From an uncultured bacterium (GTDB lineage: Bacteria; Actinomycetota; Actinomycetes; S36-B12; CAIKAW01): 34,866 nucleotides of DNA. The DNA is taken from NCBI GenBank assembly GCA_903825575.1, contig CAIKAW010000093.1, positions 1 through 34,866 on the forward strand, given 5' to 3'. A program made the translations under genes and the position numbers. Each line of letters starts with the position of its first letter. Positions within the stretch are counted from its first letter, which is position 1. The notes under the pieces were generated by a model. That model was not told the DNA's origin. It searched no databases and saw only the letters and a program-made list of their open reading frames with translations. Of this stretch, positions 8,569 to 15,106 are shown one piece after another.

Positions 8569-10536
8569 ATGGCCGAGCCTGGCACCGAGGGCGCATTCAC
8601 TCGGCTACTCAGCCCATTGCGAATCGGTTCGGTGGTACTGCCGAACCGCATCGTCTCCACTGGTCACGACACCGTTATGGCCCACGAGGGTCAGGTAACC
8701 GAGCAGTTGATCGCCTACCAGCAAGCGCGTGCTGCCGGTGGCGTCGGCTTGATTGTCGTTCAGGCATGTGGGGTACACCCAACGGCCAAATACACATCCC
8801 GCGTCTTGATGATCGACGACGATTCAGGCATCCCGGGATTCGCCAAACTGGCGGCGGCGGTGCACGAACACCAGGTACCGATCTTCGCGCAGTTGTTCCA
8901 TGGCGGCCGCGAAGTTATGGAAGGCCAGGATGGCTCGCTTCCTGTTACATATGCGCCGTCTGCAATACCGAACGAGCGATTTCACGTGATGCCGCGCGCA
9001 ATGCCTCTCGGACTCATCGAAGAGGTGATCGCCAGCTATGGCGCGGCGGCGGCGCGACTTGCTGCTGCGGGGTTGGACGGCGCCGAACTTGTTGCTTCGC
9101 ACGGCTATTTGCCCGCCCAGTTCCTCAATCCGAAAGTGAATCTGCGAACCGACGAGTACGGCGGCGATTTGGCAAACCGGTTGCGCTTCATCACGTCGGC
9201 ATTGGGCGCGATTCGCGCCGCTGTGCCTGCCACTTTCGCGGTCGGCATGCGCATATCGATCGATGAACGAAGCGTGGACGGACTCGAGTCAGACGAGGTA
9301 CTGGCCGCACTTCGGCTCCTTGACGCCGATGGGCTGCTCGACTACGTGTCAGTAGTGGCAGGGACTTCCTCGACGTTGGCTGGCTCTGACCATATCGCTC
9401 CGCCGATGACTCAGGCCGTTGGCTACACCGCGCCGCTCGGTGCGCTAGCCAAGGGTGCGATCTCGGTGCCAGTAATCGTCACCGGGCGGATCAACCAACC
9501 ACAGATTGCCGAAGCAATCCTTGCGGCCGGTGATGCCGACGCAGTTGGCATGACGCGCGCCATGATCTGCGACCCGGAACTTGGAAACAAGATCAGCGCT
9601 GGCAAATCCGATGAGGTTCGTGCCTGCATCGGCTGTAATCAGGCTTGCATCGGACACTTCCACCTTGGCTATCCGATTTCGTGTATCCAACACCCAGAGT
9701 CGGGTCGGGAGGACGAGTTCCGCGACCGCAGTCCGGTACGCGTGCCGCGCCATGTTGTCGTCGTCGGTGGTGGTCCGGCGGGCCTGAAGGCCGCGGTTAC
9801 GGCCGCACAGCGTGGACATCGGGTAACGCTTTTCGAAGCTGAGCGTCGGGTTGGGGGACAGGTGTTGCTGGCAGAGCGACTACCGGGCCGAGCCGAATTC
9901 GGCGGCGCGATTACGAATCTGACCAGTGAAGCGGCGCGGTACGGGGTCGAAATTGTGACTGGTCGTCGACTTGATGCGGCTGGCGTTCTGGCCGCCAATC
10001 CGGATGTGGTCGTAGTCGCCACCGGTGCAGTGCCGCGCCGGCCCGAACTGGAAACCGGCGATGCCGTGGTGCTCGACGCTTGGGAAGTCATCGCTGGAGC
10101 TGCCGTGCCGACTGGACCTGTTGTGGTCGCTGATTGGCGCTGCGACTGGGTTGGCTTGGGTGTCGCAACCTTGCTAGCGCAACAGGGGCATCGAGTAACG
10201 CTGGCGGTCAGTGGCTACTTCGCTGGACAACTCCTCCAGCAATACATTCGCGACGAACTGCTCGCACTGGCTGCCACGTCCGGAGTCTTGGTTCTACCCC
10301 TGGTGCGGCCTTACGGGGCCGATGAAGACAGCGTGTACCTACAGCACGTGCTCACTGGCGAGCCGGTCATCGTTCCAGCACATGCGCTGGTCCTAGCCCA
10401 AGGACACCAAGCGGTGGACGAGTTACTGCACGAACTCGCCGGGCTAGTCGAGGTCCACGCGGTGGGCGATGCCTTAGCACCTCGGACCGTCGAGGAGGCG
10501 ATCTTGGAAGCGCTGCGAATCGGGCGGGCAATCTGA
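8569..10536 (+). CDS. Old Yellow Enzyme/FAD/4Fe-4S oxidoreductase (2,4-dienoyl-CoA reductase / TMA dehydrogenase family)
   Basis: A 655-residue three-part flavoprotein. Residues ~10-340 form an FMN TIM barrel (NRIVSTGHDTVM, LFHGGREV, HGYLPAQFLNPK...TDEYGG). Four Cys at 353, 356, 360 and 372 (C-x2-C-x3-C-x11-C) bind a 4Fe-4S cluster. From ~395 a Rossmann domain (VVVVGGGPAGLKAA) binds FAD or ADP, followed by a dinucleotide domain. The same architecture occurs in 2,4-dienoyl-CoA reductase FadH, trimethylamine and histamine dehydrogenases and N-methylproline demethylase. The Cys that covalently binds FMN in trimethylamine dehydrogenase has no equivalent in the STGHDT loop, so covalent flavin is not expected. 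A GGAGG at 8557-8561 sets the ATG. A MarR gene follows by 55 bases. Substrate open: unsaturated acyl-CoA or an N-methylated amine are both possible. Confidence 0.9.
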   Translation: MAEPGTEGAFTRLLSPLRIGSVVLPNRIVSTGHDTVMAHEGQVTEQLIAYQQARAAGGVGLIVVQACGVHPTAKYTSRVLMIDDDSGIPGFAKLAAAVHEHQVPIFAQLFHGGREVMEGQDGSLPVTYAPSAIPNERFHVMPRAMPLGLIEEVIASYGAAAARLAAAGLDGAELVASHGYLPAQFLNPKVNLRTDEYGGDLANRLRFITSALGAIRAAVPATFAVGMRISIDERSVDGLESDEVLAALRLLDADGLLDYVSVVAGTSSTLAGSDHIAPPMTQAVGYTAPLGALAKGAISVPVIVTGRINQPQIAEAILAAGDADAVGMTRAMICDPELGNKISAGKSDEVRACIGCNQACIGHFHLGYPISCIQHPESGREDEFRDRSPVRVPRHVVVVGGGPAGLKAAVTAAQRGHRVTLFEAERRVGGQVLLAERLPGRAEFGGAITNLTSEAARYGVEIVTGRRLDAAGVLAANPDVVVVATGAVPRRPELETGDAVVLDAWEVIAGAAVPTGPVVVADWRCDWVGLGVATLLAQQGHRVTLAVSGYFAGQLLQQYIRDELLALAATSGVLVLPLVRPYGADEDSVYLQHVLTGEPVIVPAHALVLAQGHQAVDELLHELAGLVEVHAVGDALAPRTVEEAILEALRIGRAI

Positions 10537-10591: not shown

Positions 10592-11080
10592 ATGGCTCAG
10601 TGGCTCAGCGATGACGAGCAGCATGTCTGGCGTTCCTTCATTGCTATGACGGGTTTGATCTGGGAAAACCTAGATCGCGAGTTGCAGACCGATGCCGGAA
10701 TGCCGCAGTCCTACTACCTGATTTTGGCCATGCTCTCCGAGGCGCCTAATCGCCAATTGCGAATGAGCGAACTTGCGCTGGCGGCTAACTCGTCGCAGTC
10801 TCGCCTTTCGCACGCAGCGTCTCGGCTGGAGCAGCGCGGGTGGATCACCCGAGTGCCGGCCCCTGATGATGGGCGTGGGAGCTTGGCGATTTTGACCGAC
10901 GCGGGGTATGAAGTTCTGGTCGCTGCCGCACCGGGCCATGTCACCGCAGTCCGGAGCGCACTATTCGACCCGCTAACCGAACAGCAGGTGGTCGACTTAG
11001 GCGCGATGTGCGACGCGGTGCTGAATGTGTTGGACCCCGATATGACCTCGCGCAATCGTGGTGGCCTGAAGTCAGAGTGA
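10592..11080 (+). CDS. MarR-family transcriptional regulator
   Basis: A 162-residue winged helix-turn-helix protein. The MarR fold can be followed: dimerisation helix (WRSFIAMTGLIWENLDREL), helix-turn-helix LRMSELALAANSSQSRLSHAASRLEQRGWI (N-terminal LRMSELALAAN and recognition helix SQSRLSHAASRLEQRGW), and the wing with the conserved D-D-G-R segment (PAPDDGRGSLAILT). MarR proteins typically repress neighbouring genes and release DNA on binding aromatic or phenolic ligands. Its position 55 bases after the Fe-S flavoenzyme on the same strand makes that gene the best candidate target. It ends 13 bases from the convergent ferredoxin gene. Confidence 0.92.
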   Translation: MAQWLSDDEQHVWRSFIAMTGLIWENLDRELQTDAGMPQSYYLILAMLSEAPNRQLRMSELALAANSSQSRLSHAASRLEQRGWITRVPAPDDGRGSLAILTDAGYEVLVAAAPGHVTAVRSALFDPLTEQQVVDLGAMCDAVLNVLDPDMTSRNRGGLKSE

Positions 11081-11093
11081 GTGCGGGCCGTTG

Positions 11094-11315
11094 CTAGTTA
11101 GGCAGGTCATCGAGGAACAGCGCGCGTCTTGGACATGCCGCGATTGCTGCATCAGCGGACTTGCGATCCCGCTTGCTAAGCGGGTGTCCGGCAACAATTG
11201 GGAAGCCCCAAGAATCCACGGTGATCAAAGTCGGCGCCAGATGTGTGCAGATACCTATGCCATCACAGGCCACTGGGTCCACGCGGAGCCGAACCGGATG
11301 TTGATTGGCAGCCAT
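11094..11315 (-). CDS. Single-cluster ferredoxin (3Fe-4S/4Fe-4S type)
   Basis: A 73-residue small ferredoxin and the last gene of the six-gene redox operon. Cluster ligands are C17-x5-C23 with THLAP after it, and C61 in a CP dipeptide. This is the three-Cys pattern of actinobacterial ferredoxins, often [3Fe-4S], that partner cytochromes P450. The start is set by a TGATG junction with the NuoF-like gene: ATG 11315 shares its A with that stop, so a longer start is unlikely. The genetic link suggests it carries electrons between the NuoF-like protein and the di-heme membrane protein rather than serving a P450; no P450 gene is in the window. Confidence 0.9.
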   Translation of the reverse strand: MAANQHPVRLRVDPVACDGIGICTHLAPTLITVDSWGFPIVAGHPLSKRDRKSADAAIAACPRRALFLDDLPN

Positions 11316-12625
11316 CAAGCACTCGGTACGGGGATTAGCCGGGGCCCGGTATCGGCGCGACACGGTCCGCGACGAAGGTGTAAGTCAACGTCTACGGCGA
11401 AAGTCGTGAACATTGAGGCTAGTAATCGCATTGCCCCATCGGGATGGTGACAGCCACCGCGCCCGTCGATTTCGGCTCGGTATCGTTCAAGTCGTTTACG
11501 GTCGGCTCGCCCAAGTTCACCGCGAGCCAGTGCGGAGACTAGGTCCGCCACGGCGCGCAACCCAAACAGGCATGGGCCACACTGCCGCGCACTGCTATCG
11601 GCCAAGTACTCCAAGATTCGCCCCGTTTCAGCGATGCCGCAGCCGTCGGTGGGCAGCGGTGCGACGATTCCGGCACCGGTCGATCGGCCTTGAAGTTGGG
11701 CGGCTGGCTCGGATGCCGGTATTGCTTGAAACTCTGCCCACGGCACCCAGTTGCCCCCGTAACCTCCGAGCAGCACGGCCTGCGGAGTTTCGGCGACGTG
11801 CGAGTTGACTAACTGGCCGAGTGTCGTGTCCGGACGAATTTCGGTAACCGTTCTTCCGGTCGGCGTAAGGACCGTGAACAAGGCTGAAGGAATGCCTCCG
11901 CGCTCCACGTGTCCGGTGGGATCCAGACCGCGTGCGATGGCAGCGATTCGAGCCAAAGTTTCGACATTGTGCAGCAGCGTGGGCGCACCGTTGACGCCGG
12001 ATTCGGATGAATGTTTGCGGCGAAAAGTCGGAAGAGGAGGTCCGCCCGACAGCGCGTTTACTACCGCACTTGACTCACCCGTCAGGTAGCGATCAGGGCC
12101 GGTAATCAGCTGGATGTGTGGTCCTGGCAGTCCGGCCACGCGGCGTTCGGCAATGGCCTTGGCCAAGCTCGCTCGCGTTGCCGTAGCTCCCGCGTGGAGC
12201 CAAATCACCGAATGTTCGGCCCGAGTTGCAATGGCCGCTAACTGCAGGCCGTCTAGAACTAGGTGCGGTCTGGTTTGCAGCAACGCGGCGTCCTTGGCGC
12301 TCAGCGGTTCTCCCTCGGCGCCGTTTGCCACTGCGTAGCCACCACCGGCCGTCGCCATGACGCCGCGCCATTTCCTGGCGACTGGGAAGTGCCCGCCGCC
12401 GCGCCCGGTGAGCTTGCAGCGGACGAGTTCGTCCACGAGTTGTTCACGTCCGGCGTCCGCCGGAAAGGCGCCCCAGACTTCGGTGTGCTCGAACAGCGAT
12501 TCAGTTGCCGTGCGTTGGGCGCCTTCAGAGCCAGCGCGGGGAAAACGAATGATGGTTGGGAGCAGCCATGCCGGGGCAGTGGGCCGATCGGCGGGCTCGG
12601 TAAACGAGGGTACGTGCGTGCTCAC
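11315..12625 (-). CDS. NuoF-like NADH-binding FMN/Fe-S subunit, stand-alone
   Basis: A 436-residue relative of complex I subunit NuoF and of RnfC. The FMN/NADH domain shows GRGGGHF at 74-80, NGAEGEP at 101-107 and the typical APTLLHNVETLA at ~214-225. A SLBB-like part follows (residues ~250-300). The C-terminal Fe-S domain has C349, C352 and C392. Against the NuoF pattern C-G-x-C-x-x-C...C the first Cys is Ala346, so only three Cys ligands remain, followed by His393-His394. I recall the same SARQCGPC...CHHPDG arrangement in other actinobacterial homologues, so it is probably a family trait. No other complex I genes are adjacent. GTG start in a GTGA overlap with the upstream membrane gene. Proposed role: NADH oxidation feeding the ferredoxin. 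Confidence 0.9.
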   Translation of the reverse strand: MSTHVPSFTEPADRPTAPAWLLPTIIRFPRAGSEGAQRTATESLFEHTEVWGAFPADAGREQLVDELVRCKLTGRGGGHFPVARKWRGVMATAGGGYAVANGAEGEPLSAKDAALLQTRPHLVLDGLQLAAIATRAEHSVIWLHAGATATRASLAKAIAERRVAGLPGPHIQLITGPDRYLTGESSAVVNALSGGPPLPTFRRKHSSESGVNGAPTLLHNVETLARIAAIARGLDPTGHVERGGIPSALFTVLTPTGRTVTEIRPDTTLGQLVNSHVAETPQAVLLGGYGGNWVPWAEFQAIPASEPAAQLQGRSTGAGIVAPLPTDGCGIAETGRILEYLADSSARQCGPCLFGLRAVADLVSALARGELGRADRKRLERYRAEIDGRGGCHHPDGAMRLLASMFTTFAVDVDLHLRRGPCRADTGPRLIPVPSA

Positions 12626-13353
12626 CGGCGGGGGAGCCGTTCGCCACGTGATTTCAAATCAGAGATCAGGTCGGCCGGCGTTCGGGCCGTGTAGCGCGTG
12701 GCTGCTAGGGCGATCACGAAGATCGCAGTTATGTAGTACAGCGCTTGCAGCGTGGCCGAATCGCTACCGGCCAGGACGCCGTGAATCCAGATGAGCACAA
12801 GCGAAATCGAAGCCACCTTGTGGATTGGCCACCAGATCCGAGCCGTAATCCGCCCGGCCAAAATTGCCGTGAGTCCAGAGAGGAGCCCCGAGTACAGGCC
12901 GATCAACCCAAGCGTGACGGCCAGCGGGCGGTAGGTCGCGGCCATCGGCAACAGTGCACCGCGAACTCCGACGCCTGCCCATTTGTCATTCACCAAGACG
13001 AGGATGTGCAAAATCGTGAAGACCAACGTAAACACGGCAAGCGTCACGTGGATTCGGATCCGGGTCGCCGGTATGGGGCGTCGCACTCTGGTTCGCCATG
13101 GGTGAGATAGAACCAGTCCGAGGGAGACAAGCAGTACGAGCAAAAGGTAAGACGTAATCCCCGCTGCCCTTGCGAGCAGCCAAAGTTCGTTGCGATTTCC
13201 AGCGACGGACGAGATCGCGTTACCCACTAGCCAACTGGAAACGCCCGTGCTGATTGCGATCCCAAGGACGATGCCGAGCCCGCGTCCGACTCCGATGATG
13301 ATCGGTCTGTTGGGCTGCGAACGACGCGACGATGGCAGCTGCTCAGTTGTCAC
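12622..13353 (-). CDS. Ferric-reductase-like transmembrane di-heme b protein
   Basis: A 243-residue membrane protein of the ferric-reductase-like transmembrane superfamily (the YedZ/MsrQ, NOX and STEAP core). About six helices are visible. Two carry spaced His pairs: H102 and H116 in one helix, and H178 and H191 in another. This is the classical arrangement for two stacked b hemes that pass electrons across the membrane. There is no FAD/NADPH cytosolic domain, so electrons must come from a separate partner, most likely the NuoF-like protein and ferredoxin encoded downstream. The GTG start overlaps the ApbE gene by 11 bases, and the stop overlaps the NuoF-like start by 4. Confidence 0.9.
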   Translation of the reverse strand: MTTEQLPSSRRSQPNRPIIIGVGRGLGIVLGIAISTGVSSWLVGNAISSVAGNRNELWLLARAAGITSYLLLVLLVSLGLVLSHPWRTRVRRPIPATRIRIHVTLAVFTLVFTILHILVLVNDKWAGVGVRGALLPMAATYRPLAVTLGLIGLYSGLLSGLTAILAGRITARIWWPIHKVASISLVLIWIHGVLAGSDSATLQALYYITAIFVIALAATRYTARTPADLISDLKSRGERLPRR

Positions 13354-14311
13354 GCGAGGCCTGCCAAATCAGGTGCGGCTTAAGGTCACGGCTGGTTCCC
13401 ACAAACCCATCATGATCTACCCATAGTGCGGCCAGTGAATGTTCATCGGCGAAGGCTCGGATTCCACCTCGCCCGACGAGGAACAACGACTTGCTCCACA
13501 CCTCGGCCTCAGCGGCATCTGGACCGACCACCGTGACCGCCAGCAACCCGGACTCAGCCGGTCGGGCGGTCCTCGGATCGATCAAGTGGTGGGCGGCTCG
13601 ACCGTCGACCTGCCAGTGCCGGACCCGGATTGACGATGTCGCACAGGCACCGGAGGTCAGGTTCACTACCGCGACCGGCTCGGATCCGCCGCGTGGATCC
13701 TCGACGCCGATCCGCCACCCCGTGCCCTCGGTTCCTAGTCCGGATACCGCGACATCCCCGCCCGCCTCGACTAGAGCAGCAGCGCTGCTGGCGACGAGTT
13801 CGGCCAGCGCCCACCGCACTGCCAGTCCCTTGCCGATTCCGCCCAAATCGATCGGCTCCGAACCGATCTTGACTCGACTCCTAGCCTGGTCGAGACCTGG
13901 CTCCCAGGTCCGGCGCATTGCCTTGCTCGAAGTTGCTTCGCCGGTGCCAGTAAGGCTGATCTCGCCCGATCGAAACGGCAACGAGCGGTCGTACCCGGCG
14001 AGCGTTAGGGCCTTGAGCACTCTCGGATCGAACCGGCCATCAGTTTCCCGGTGCGCGACGGCCGCCGCCGCGATCGCGTCGAAACAAAGGACAGGAACCT
14101 CATGCCAATTGCGCGGATCAGCATTAGCGCGCATCAAAGGGCTATCGGGATTGAACCTCGTACAGGCCTGTTCGACGGAATGAAAGACAGCTTCGGCCCG
14201 AGCTAGCGCTGCGGCACTTTCCGGCCTAGGTCCGACCAACTGGAAAGTGACGTCCGTGGCCATCGCCCGGAATTTATGCTCAAGGTCGGGGGCCGAAGCC
14301 TCCGACATCAC
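13343..14311 (-). CDS. apbE: FAD:protein FMN transferase (ApbE)
   Basis: A ~322-residue ApbE-family enzyme. ApbE cleaves FAD and attaches FMN through a phosphoester to Thr/Ser in target proteins, using Mg2+. Motifs in order are DLGGIGKG at 155-162, GGDVAVSG at 184-191, ACATSS around 222-227, and HHLIDPRT at 241-248, matching the family throughout. No signal peptide or lipobox is present, so the enzyme is predicted to be cytoplasmic. This is unusual if its target is exported unfolded by Sec. It starts at GTG 14311 (GTGA overlap) or ATG 14308 (TGATG) with the upstream coiled-coil gene. The expected FMN_bind-domain target is absent from the operon. Confidence 0.92.
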   Translation of the reverse strand: MMSEASAPDLEHKFRAMATDVTFQLVGPRPESAAALARAEAVFHSVEQACTRFNPDSPLMRANADPRNWHEVPVLCFDAIAAAAVAHRETDGRFDPRVLKALTLAGYDRSLPFRSGEISLTGTGEATSSKAMRRTWEPGLDQARSRVKIGSEPIDLGGIGKGLAVRWALAELVASSAAALVEAGGDVAVSGLGTEGTGWRIGVEDPRGGSEPVAVVNLTSGACATSSIRVRHWQVDGRAAHHLIDPRTARPAESGLLAVTVVGPDAAEAEVWSKSLFLVGRGGIRAFADEHSLAALWVDHDGFVGTSRDLKPHLIWQASRDN

Positions 14312-14703
14312 GACCCGCCGGTGGTGGTGTGGGTCGCAGGGGCCGGCGCTGGCGCCGGAATGTTGATCACGATTGGGGCCGCGCTGCCGCCGCTTGACGA
14401 CCCGCCACCGGATGACGAGCCGGTTGAAGTGCTAGCACCGACCGACTTCGCGGCCGTTCGTAGGCTGGCGACCTGCCCTCGCAAAGTCGCAACTTGTGCG
14501 GCGGCCTTGAGCAGGGTGGCTCTCATTGCCACCAGGCTTGGGTCAGGGGTGACGACGACTGGCGTCGTTGTCGCCTGGGCTGCCACAGCATGCGGGTCGT
14601 GATGTAGCGACCACGCGGTGGTGCCGCTGAAAATTACGGCAGCCACGGGCGCGACCAGGGCGGCACCGGTCCAACGGGCTCGCTGGCCCCGACGCTCAGT
14701 CAT
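14308..14703 (-). CDS. Membrane-anchored coiled-coil protein with C-terminal THTTTGGS tail
   Basis: A 131-residue unrecognised protein and second gene of the redox operon. A basic N-terminus is followed by one membrane segment (~12-32) that could be a signal anchor. A short coiled coil comes next (~56-87, Leu/Val/Ala heptads), then a Ser/Gly-rich linker (~90-108), a strand IVINIP, a Pro/Ala stretch, and the exact C-terminus THTTTGGS (124-131). The same tail motif occurs in the gene upstream. An H-x-x-T-G-G-S end resembles the ApbE target pattern D-x-x-[ST]-G-A-[ST] with His for Asp. ATG 14703 lies 8 bases inside the end of the upstream gene. The frame is open further upstream, but that extension is antisense-like, Arg/Pro-rich, and overlaps the upstream gene fully. 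Confidence 0.75.
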   Translation of the reverse strand: MTERRGQRARWTGAALVAPVAAVIFSGTTAWSLHHDPHAVAAQATTTPVVVTPDPSLVAMRATLLKAAAQVATLRGQVASLRTAAKSVGASTSTGSSSGGGSSSGGSAAPIVINIPAPAPAPATHTTTGGS

Positions 14704-15106
14704 CGAGGCCACCTTCGCTGTCGTCGCCCGTAGAACTCGATGCCCCAGTGGTGGTGTGGGTCTTTGGTGCCGAGGTCGCGGGGGACTGGACATAGCGATA
14801 CACCTGTTTGGCAGATTTGGCTGCCCGGCCAGCCGCTGCGGCAATAGCGGCCCGCTGTTGAGCCAAAGCGAGCTCGTGGCGAGCTGTGACCAGTTCCGAC
14901 CGCAACGTGCCAACTTGGCCTTCCAAGGCCTTGATGGCTGCCGCCAGTTGATCCCGGTAGGCCGCACTCGGGTCGACAGTTGAGTTAGCAGGGCTGCTCG
15001 CGACCGCCGCCGCCCCCGCTGGCGCCACGGCAAGCGCGACCCCAACTCCGGTGAGGGCACTTGTGGCGGTCACCGCGGTGATCGCCATCCTGGTGGTTCG
15101 ATTCAT
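14696..15106 (-). CDS. Secreted coiled-coil protein with THTTTGAS tail motif
   Basis: A 136-residue unrecognised protein and first gene of the redox operon. Residues 1-35 look like a Sec signal peptide (basic start, hydrophobic core, AGAAA cleavage region). Residues ~48-100 form an Ala/Leu/Gln-rich coiled coil. The tail has APKTHTTTGASSSTGDDS followed by acidic residues. THTTTGAS (116-123) fits the ApbE flavinylation pattern except that His stands where Asp is usual. The start is ATG 15106, five bases after a GGAGG; an ATG at 15118 overlaps that site and is less likely. No FMN_bind fold is visible. Its partner gene shares the layout: membrane or export segment, coiled coil, THTTTG tail. Confidence 0.78.
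   Translation of the reverse strand: MNRTTRMAITAVTATSALTGVGVALAVAPAGAAAVASSPANSTVDPSAAYRDQLAAAIKALEGQVGTLRSELVTARHELALAQQRAAIAAAAGRAAKSAKQVYRYVQSPATSAPKTHTTTGASSSTGDDSEGGLDD

Follow-up and report, generated by a model that had tools for sequence, protein, structure and literature searches.

The window (the whole 34,866-nucleotide stretch that was analyzed) carries on its minus strand, at positions 11094 to 15106, six genes in the order CC1, CC2, ApbE, di-heme protein, NuoF-like protein, and ferredoxin. The coordinates bear out the predicted overlaps of 8, 1 or 4, 11, 4, and 1 bases. Genes of relatives were located by six-frame searches, and the six-gene cassette was retained in 11 relatives, with some contigs ending within the locus. 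Of the 11 type-1 loci scored, the window among them, 10 had a CC1/CC2 overlap of exactly 8 bases; the di-heme/NuoF overlap was 4 bases in 12 of 12 loci scored. Because the cassette and its overlaps are conserved among relatives, this arrangement is not due to chance. The original prediction had treated the genes as a single system, and the conservation of the coiled-coil genes and the overlaps beside the redox genes, which co-occur in the neighborhoods of the 11 relatives, supports that reading. Comparison of nine type-1 loci revealed no extra gene common to all; only the cassette genes were shared, and others occurred in three to five loci only.

The di-heme gene (12622 to 13353, minus strand) encodes a six-helix ferric-reductase-domain protein. 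No Pfam match over the cut-off was obtained, and PF01794 was sub-threshold in one relative only; the assignment was therefore made by fold and His spacing. Foldseek matched the model (pLDDT 67) to the STEAP/NOX fold (STEAP2, STEAP1, and NOX5; probability, 1.0; E values, 0.01 to 0.06), and four His with NOX spacing (14 and 13 residues) were invariant (50/50), with H102/H178 and H116/H191 as the predicted b-heme ligand pairs. Together, the fold match and the invariant His uphold the earlier description of this protein as di-heme and ferric reductase-like. The NuoF-like NAD(P)H dehydrogenase (11315 to 12625, minus strand; Complex1_51K, PF01512, 101 bits; NADH_4Fe-4S, PF10589, 47 bits) comprises an FMN domain and an altered Fe-S motif. 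The residues for FMN/NADH and CGPC are conserved, while of the four-Cys 4Fe-4S set of complex I, C349, C352, and C392 are retained and the first Cys is Ala346. An extra Cys upstream, C329, is conserved (85%) and possibly replaces the missing first Cys. Identity to the closest complex I-type NuoF of the same genome is 28%. The last gene (11094 to 11315, minus strand; Fer4_15, PF13459, 33 bits) encodes a small ferredoxin with three invariant Cys, which is likely of the [3Fe-4S] type.

Neither CC1 nor CC2 had a Pfam match over the cut-off, and neither matched PF04205. CC1 (14696 to 15106, minus strand) is an exported protein with a signal sequence, a long helix, a disordered tail, a flavin-tag-like motif, and an end that is acidic in every CC1 tail. 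CC2 (14308 to 14703, minus strand) is low in complexity and membrane anchored, with a short coil and a C-terminal tag. The original description of two exported coiled-coil proteins needs correction: in CC1, one confident long helix spans residues 46 to 106; in CC2, the coil is short, and the N-terminal anchor and C-terminal tag, not the coil, are conserved. The CC1 tag is HTTTGAS (residues 117 to 123; 14738 to 14758, minus strand), with Ser123 as the predicted FMN site and TGAS invariant in nine relatives; the CC2 tag is HTTTGGS-stop (residues 125 to 131; 14311 to 14331, minus strand), with the predicted FMN site, Ser131, as the last residue. Across nine CC1 and seven CC2 sequences, the tag motif was nearly the sole invariant stretch. 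Compared with the consensus D-x-x-[S/T]-G-A-[S/T], the CC1 core matches (TGAS), the CC2 core has one change (TGGS), and His replaces Asp in both; the relative L044 has a complete DATTGAS. These proteins had been regarded as coiled-coil heads without an assigned role, and the ApbE-type tags at both C termini point instead to flavin carriers.

A second operon type (NuoF/ApbE, type 2), present in one copy in the window's genome, codes for a small exported protein that in most cases terminates in [S/T]G[A/G]S. Across the NuoF-like operons, 41 proteins encoded directly upstream of apbE were analyzed: an exact [S/T]G[A/G]S-stop ending was seen in 17, TGAS no more than 6 residues from the end in 9 others, and an [S/T]x[A/G]S ending in 9 of the 41. 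Tagged tails were found in Streptomyces, Kibdelosporangium, Symbioplanes, Amycolatopsis, and Pseudonocardia, among named hosts. These tails are rich in Ser, Thr, Gly, and Ala, and GGAGG lies within some type-2 ends, as might be seen if the CC proteins were structural or regulatory, with a classical-domain flavin carrier elsewhere and a tail motif that arose by coincidence or only reflects low complexity or the apbE ribosome site. However, shuffling of the 41 upstream proteins gave 0.22 expected exact endings against the 17 observed, which rules out a chance origin in low-complexity tails. None of 126 C termini from other genes of the same operons ended in [S/T]G[A/G]S-stop; the tag endings are therefore not a by-product of the ribosome site, and such an origin of the SGGS tails was ruled out. 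The CC1 tags, moreover, sit 13 to about 35 codons upstream of the stop, beyond the reach of a ribosome site. A profile search (PF04205 at E ≤ 10) detected no FMN_bind, DUF2271, or DUF3570 domain in the window's genome, whose assembly is 95% complete and which encodes two ApbEs; its contigs carry no 16S rRNA gene. In 11 loci of related genomes, an FMN_bind gene adjoins its own, different ApbE. A structural or regulatory role with a coincidental tag is already largely refuted, and we consider it very improbable. Given the ApbE-type motif at the end of both CC1 and CC2, and with the genome yielding none of the other substrate domains known for ApbE, the two proteins are very probably the flavin carriers of the operon.

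The ApbE-family FMN transferase (13343 to 14308, minus strand, with an alternative GTG start at 14311; PF02424, 168 bits) has no signal peptide. ApbE proteins are usually exported, as lipoproteins or by means of a signal peptide, but not universally, and cytosolic ApbEs are already known. In a hydropathy test, none of the 41 ApbEs scored had a signal-like hydrophobic N terminus. The window's ApbE retains the catalytic His and the ATS serine (HHLIDPRTA and CATSS), and in the ADxxxT stretch Glu270 and Lys274 (GTG numbering) stand where Asp and Thr are usual. All tag-linked ApbEs have Glu or Asn at this Asp, with Thr changed to Lys in type 1, while Asp occupies the same position in 11 of 11 ApbEs adjoining FMN_bind genes. 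These replacements of Asp/Thr, by Glu/Lys or by Asn, define a concrete candidate for a new ApbE subfamily. Three residues have been reported as conserved in ApbE active sites, and the ADxxxT Asp is probably one of them; given this substitution, the activity of the window's ApbE is not certain. E-type ApbEs were also observed outside NuoF-like clusters: that of L254 is accompanied by the di-heme gene and, upstream, by a tail that terminates in STSKGS, and those of L252 and L253 have no clear tagged neighbor.

The replacement of the ADxxxT residues, together with His in place of the tag Asp, would also fit an ApbE-like protein that has lost its FMN transferase activity or that performs other chemistry (FAD hydrolysis or other nucleotide transfer), the tags then serving another modification or docking to the di-heme protein. 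Against this stand the retained catalytic His and ATS serine and a tag core that is the motif recognized by ApbE in CC1 and one residue away from it in CC2, with the full motif in L044, and we judge loss of the transferase activity unlikely.

We therefore favor, as the probable function of the operon, a membrane electron transfer line that ends in FMN on the C-terminal tags of exported or anchored disordered proteins. The path first proposed, from NADH through the NuoF-like protein/ferredoxin and the b hemes to an extracytoplasmic flavin, remains the most sensible one; it left the flavin carrier unnamed, and the tags on CC1 and CC2 supply a candidate. In the cytosol, NAD(P)H would reduce the NuoF-like flavoprotein, from which the electrons would pass, directly or via the small ferredoxin, to the six-helix two-b-heme protein, which would take them across the membrane. 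The receiver outside would be FMN placed by the operon's ApbE on the two tags, so that CC1 and CC2 would act as swinging arms tipped with flavin, a coiled-coil spacer taking the place of the usual folded FMN-binding domain. Lacking a signal peptide, the ApbE probably draws on cytosolic FAD to flavinylate the tag, either ahead of export of the chain or in the course of it. We infer flavinylation, its timing, and the direction and order of electron flow from the features described above. Several observations count against this model. With a cytosolic ApbE and an exported tail, the flavinylated chain must pass Sec or Tat, and in one family (f60, four genomes) a Cys-x(n)-Cys tail takes the place of the tag at the end of the protein in the tag-carrier position. 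The Gly for the canonical Ala in CC2, the His for Asp in both tags, and the altered ADxxxT stretch of ApbE likewise count against it.

As a sub-case, the same tagged carriers could serve a line that is mainly an assimilatory iron/metal reductase, with the acidic CC1 tail binding metal beside FMN. The membrane protein belongs to the FRD superfamily, CC1 tails always end in acidic residues, and ferrous-iron transporters occur in published MsrQ-like clusters; however, no iron transporter or siderophore gene was conserved beside the cassette in the nine type-1 loci compared. This specialization is possible but doubtful.

On balance, we lean toward a broader reading of the tag-based electron transfer line: a natural, widespread class in Actinomycetota of domain-less exported disordered flavoproteins whose sole redox site would be FMN carried by a C-terminal [S/T]G[A/G]S tag. 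A separate ApbE subfamily, its active site altered from D to E/N, would attach this FMN within the cytosol. If so, cytosolic FAD would supply an envelope flavin without FAD export, and the class could explain some "orphan" apbE genes. To our knowledge, the flavin of the ApbE-type carriers described so far is attached to a folded domain (FMN-bind, DUF2271, DUF3570, NqrB/RnfD, or flavodoxin) or, in FMN_red proteins, next to one. Among ApbE-flavinylated redox proteins, a flexible arm with a bare tag would then be the simplest, and it would give the engineered flavin-tag a precedent in nature. A literature search for disordered flavinylated substrates found none; the domain-less tag carrier has been built by engineers and was not found described in nature. 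ApbEs lacking a signal peptide were excluded from an earlier survey, which therefore did not cover the tag-linked class.

The combination of NADH, NuoF, ferric reductase, and ApbE has already been described in 31 clusters (Meheust et al. 2021, PMC8238504); what is new relative to described systems is the predicted type of substrate and the ApbE subfamily. Like the actinobacterial MsrQ-like flavinylation clusters of that study, the operon has a six-helix di-heme FRD protein, an ApbE, and an NAD(P)H-oxidizing NuoF-like partner, but it has tag-bearing disordered carriers in place of an FMN-binding-domain substrate. The di-heme protein shares its fold, four His, and spacing with the NOX/STEAP ferric reductase domain superfamily (PMC3591440) but has no fused FAD/NAD domain; separate NuoF-like and ferredoxin subunits presumably supply its electrons. 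The NuoF-like protein resembles NuoF/Nqo1 of complex I in its FMN/NADH domain and Fe-S region and differs in its cluster residues (Ala346 and C329) and in having no NuoE or NuoG partner encoded in the operon. FMN_red proteins have been shown experimentally to be flavinylated by ApbE at one or two motifs within an unstructured C-terminal extension, adjacent to the folded, flavin-binding FMN_red domain (Huang et al. 2024, PMC11334425); CC1 and CC2 likewise bear the motif on a disordered tail, but with no flavin-binding domain beside it, and in such operons it often makes up the final four residues. A further parallel is the short terminal motif of the engineered flavin-tag, a 7-residue sequence that, as cited in PMC12052999, works best at a protein terminus (Tong et al. 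2021); a terminal tag of this length is sufficient, and loss of its Asp has a minor effect (PMC12052999). Unlike that man-made tag, those described here are natural, with His for Asp and sometimes Gly for Ala.

The six genes of the operon were found exactly where the original prediction had placed them, all on the minus strand: from the operon start, the exported coiled-coil proteins CC1 (14696-15106) and CC2 (14308-14703), an ApbE (13343-14308, or from a GTG at 14311), a di-heme protein (12622-13353), a NuoF-like protein (11315-12625), and a ferredoxin (11094-11315). The predicted overlaps of 8, 1 (or 4), 11, 4, and 1 bases, in that order from CC1/CC2, were confirmed. Pfam matches were obtained for ApbE, the NuoF-like protein (51K FMN/NADH domain and NuoF Fe-S region), and the ferredoxin (single-cluster ferredoxin); no match over the cut-off was obtained for CC1, CC2, or the di-heme protein. 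Tail to tail with this operon lies a MarR-family regulator gene (10592-11080), which follows a gene for an OYE-family flavoprotein (8569-10536) near the mycofactocin OYE 2/BaiCD models (570 bits, under the 793 cut-off).

Conservation was assessed in 60 genomes of the same order. The window-like (type-1) cassette was present in 11 genomes besides its own, disregarding genes cut by contig ends or too short or low in complexity for scoring. The CC1/CC2 overlap was 8 bases in 10 of 11 scored type-1 loci (window counted), the di-heme/NuoF overlap was 4 bases in all 12 loci, and the ApbE/di-heme overlap was 11 bases in about half. With the coiled-coil genes kept beside the redox genes and the overlaps retained in relatives, the proposal that the six genes form a single system held. 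No gene outside the cassette was common to all nine compared type-1 loci.

The NuoF-like protein retains glycine-rich and acidic residues (G74, G76, G77, K85, E104, E106, D112, Y180, and E184) that make up the FMN/NADH site in complex I. The first cluster-motif Cys of complex I NuoF is missing across the NuoF-like family and is A346 here (SARQCGPC), C349, C352, and C392 are kept, and an upstream Cys, C329, is 85% conserved, which suggests that the cluster is re-ligated or three-Cys. The ferredoxin has three invariant Cys, the same set as in [3Fe-4S] ferredoxins. The di-heme protein resembles in fold the membrane-spanning region of STEAP2, STEAP1, and NOX5 (Foldseek probability 1.0, E 0.014-0.057; model pLDDT 67). 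Its invariant His residues (102, 116, 178, and 191; n=4) have the spacings of 14 and 13 seen in NOX2 (His 101/115 and 209/222; PMC3591440), and pairs so spaced occur in 50 of 50 relatives. Therefore, two hemes are expected, one close to each membrane face.

The coiled-coil proteins of type-1 relatives share the short C-terminal motif of the window pair. In CC1 (n=9 sequences), the columns without variation are M1, a small number of alanines, the stretch T120-G121-A122-S123, and the final two aspartates; those in CC2 (n=7) include T128, G129, and S131. The ApbE target motif is D-x-x-[S/T]-G-A-[S/T] (PMC12052999), its core being given as [S/T]GA[S/T] (PMC8238504, PMC11334425), and judged by sequence the conserved CC1/CC2 stretch is this core, with one change (Gly for Ala) in the window CC2. 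His often replaces the first Asp, as in the window tags HTTTGAS (CC1) and HTTTGGS (CC2); loss of the motif Asp had only minor effects, seven residues were sufficient for ApbE, and a terminus was the best position (PMC12052999). One relative has the complete DATTGAS in both coiled-coil proteins, and another has two motif copies within CC1. In the AlphaFold model of CC1, only helix 46-106 is confident (pLDDT about 89); the signal sequence is a low-confidence helix, and the remainder is disordered with no globular domain. The acidic CC1 tail beyond TGAS (14696-14737) ends in DD and contains long Asp/Glu runs in two relatives, suggesting putative metal binding.

A second ApbE/di-heme/NuoF-like/ferredoxin operon (type 2) is present on contig C31 of the same genome, its NuoF 41% identical. 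Its first gene encodes an exported, low-complexity protein ending in PASGGS. This arrangement recurs throughout the phylum, with tails ending in TSGAS (Streptomyces griseorubiginosus), QSGGS (Kibdelosporangium), TTGGS (Symbioplanes), RSGGS (Amycolatopsis), and SSGGS (Pseudonocardia). Among 41 proteins directly upstream of apbE (a 42nd, also TGAS-bearing, was excluded), 17 end exactly in [S/T]G[A/G]S, a further 9 carry TGAS no more than 6 residues from the end, 9 end in [S/T]x[A/G]S, 2 end in TRASK[G/A], and 4, all of one family, end in a Cys pair and not a tag. Shuffling of the last 60 residues gave 0.22 exact endings expected versus the 17 observed (nominal P about 1e-29, indicative only, as relatives are not independent). 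SGGS might instead encode the ribosome site of the overlapping apbE; an SD-like string lies at the tail in only 9 of 41, and when 126 ApbE, di-heme, and NuoF-like proteins from the same operons were checked, no C-terminus fitted even the relaxed pattern. In the Cys-tailed family (four loci), the upstream protein has a Cys-x(n)-Cys terminus (such as CYSTPSGNVRCY) in place of SGGS, the remaining operon genes and an ApbE with Asn for the ADxxxT Asp are retained, and the carrier may here take a thiol form. At two other loci, apbE is preceded by two consecutive SGGS-ending proteins, like CC1 and CC2. The second operon (C31:113000-130000) lies inside a proteasome/pupylation locus, on the opposite strand between Dop/PafA-like and prcB-prcA genes, and the operon of one further locus is placed likewise.

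In the window ApbE, the catalytic His is present within HHLIDPRT and the serine within ATSS; the stretch that is canonically A-D-x-x-x-T reads A-E270-V-W-S-K274. At these Asp/Thr positions, type-1 ApbEs are E/K and type-2 ApbEs almost all N/T (few E/T or E/K); D/T was seen instead at all 11 loci in related genomes where an ApbE gene adjoins an FMN_bind gene. In a tree, one split (support 0.80) parted tag-linked from FMN_bind-linked ApbEs, modest evidence given partial FMN_bind-linked sequences. A review of ApbE lists Ser241, His257, and Asp285 (V. cholerae numbering) as the only conserved center residues; Asp285 would be the ADxxxT Asp as we read the alignments with other ApbE structures, not by residue number. 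By simple hydropathy, a signal-like hydrophobic N-terminus was found in 0 of 41 scored ApbEs and in nearly all carriers, the two ranges overlapping slightly. Tag-type systems may have been overlooked because a 2021 survey discarded genes lacking a predicted signal peptide; orphan apbE genomes still amounted to 4% (PMC8238504). Two E/K-type ApbEs lie outside NuoF-like clusters, with no clear tagged protein adjoining.

FMN_bind, DUF2271, and DUF3570 gave no match in the genome at E<=10, and besides the predicted carriers it shows no known kind of ApbE substrate; FMN_bind is absent (E<=0.1) in 16 of 40 genomes having such a NuoF-like protein. We consider it likely that an NAD(P)H-to-FMN line ends on predicted FMN-bearing C-terminal tags of CC1 and CC2. 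NAD(P)H electrons would enter the NuoF-like subunit at its FMN and Fe-S, pass, possibly via the ferredoxin, to the inner heme and then the outer heme of the di-heme protein, and reach the tag FMN on the outside. CC1 and CC2 could be swinging arms on a tether, the coil serving as a spacer, and a C-terminal tag on an unfolded chain would allow a cytosolic ApbE to use cytosolic FAD prior to export of the tail.

The electron line as a whole belongs to a known kind, the MsrQ-like flavinylation systems, 31 of which have a NuoF-like protein (PMC8238504). Neither domain-less, C-terminally tagged carriers nor an ApbE subfamily with Glu or Asn for the Asp was found described in the literature searched (which excluded bioRxiv preprints altogether and the majority of subscription papers), and within that literature the predicted carriers and the putative subfamily appear to be new. 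The nearest precedent is FMN_red (PMC11334425), which has a flavinylation motif on a disordered tail; that tail adjoins a folded flavin-binding domain, whereas CC1 and CC2 have no such domain.
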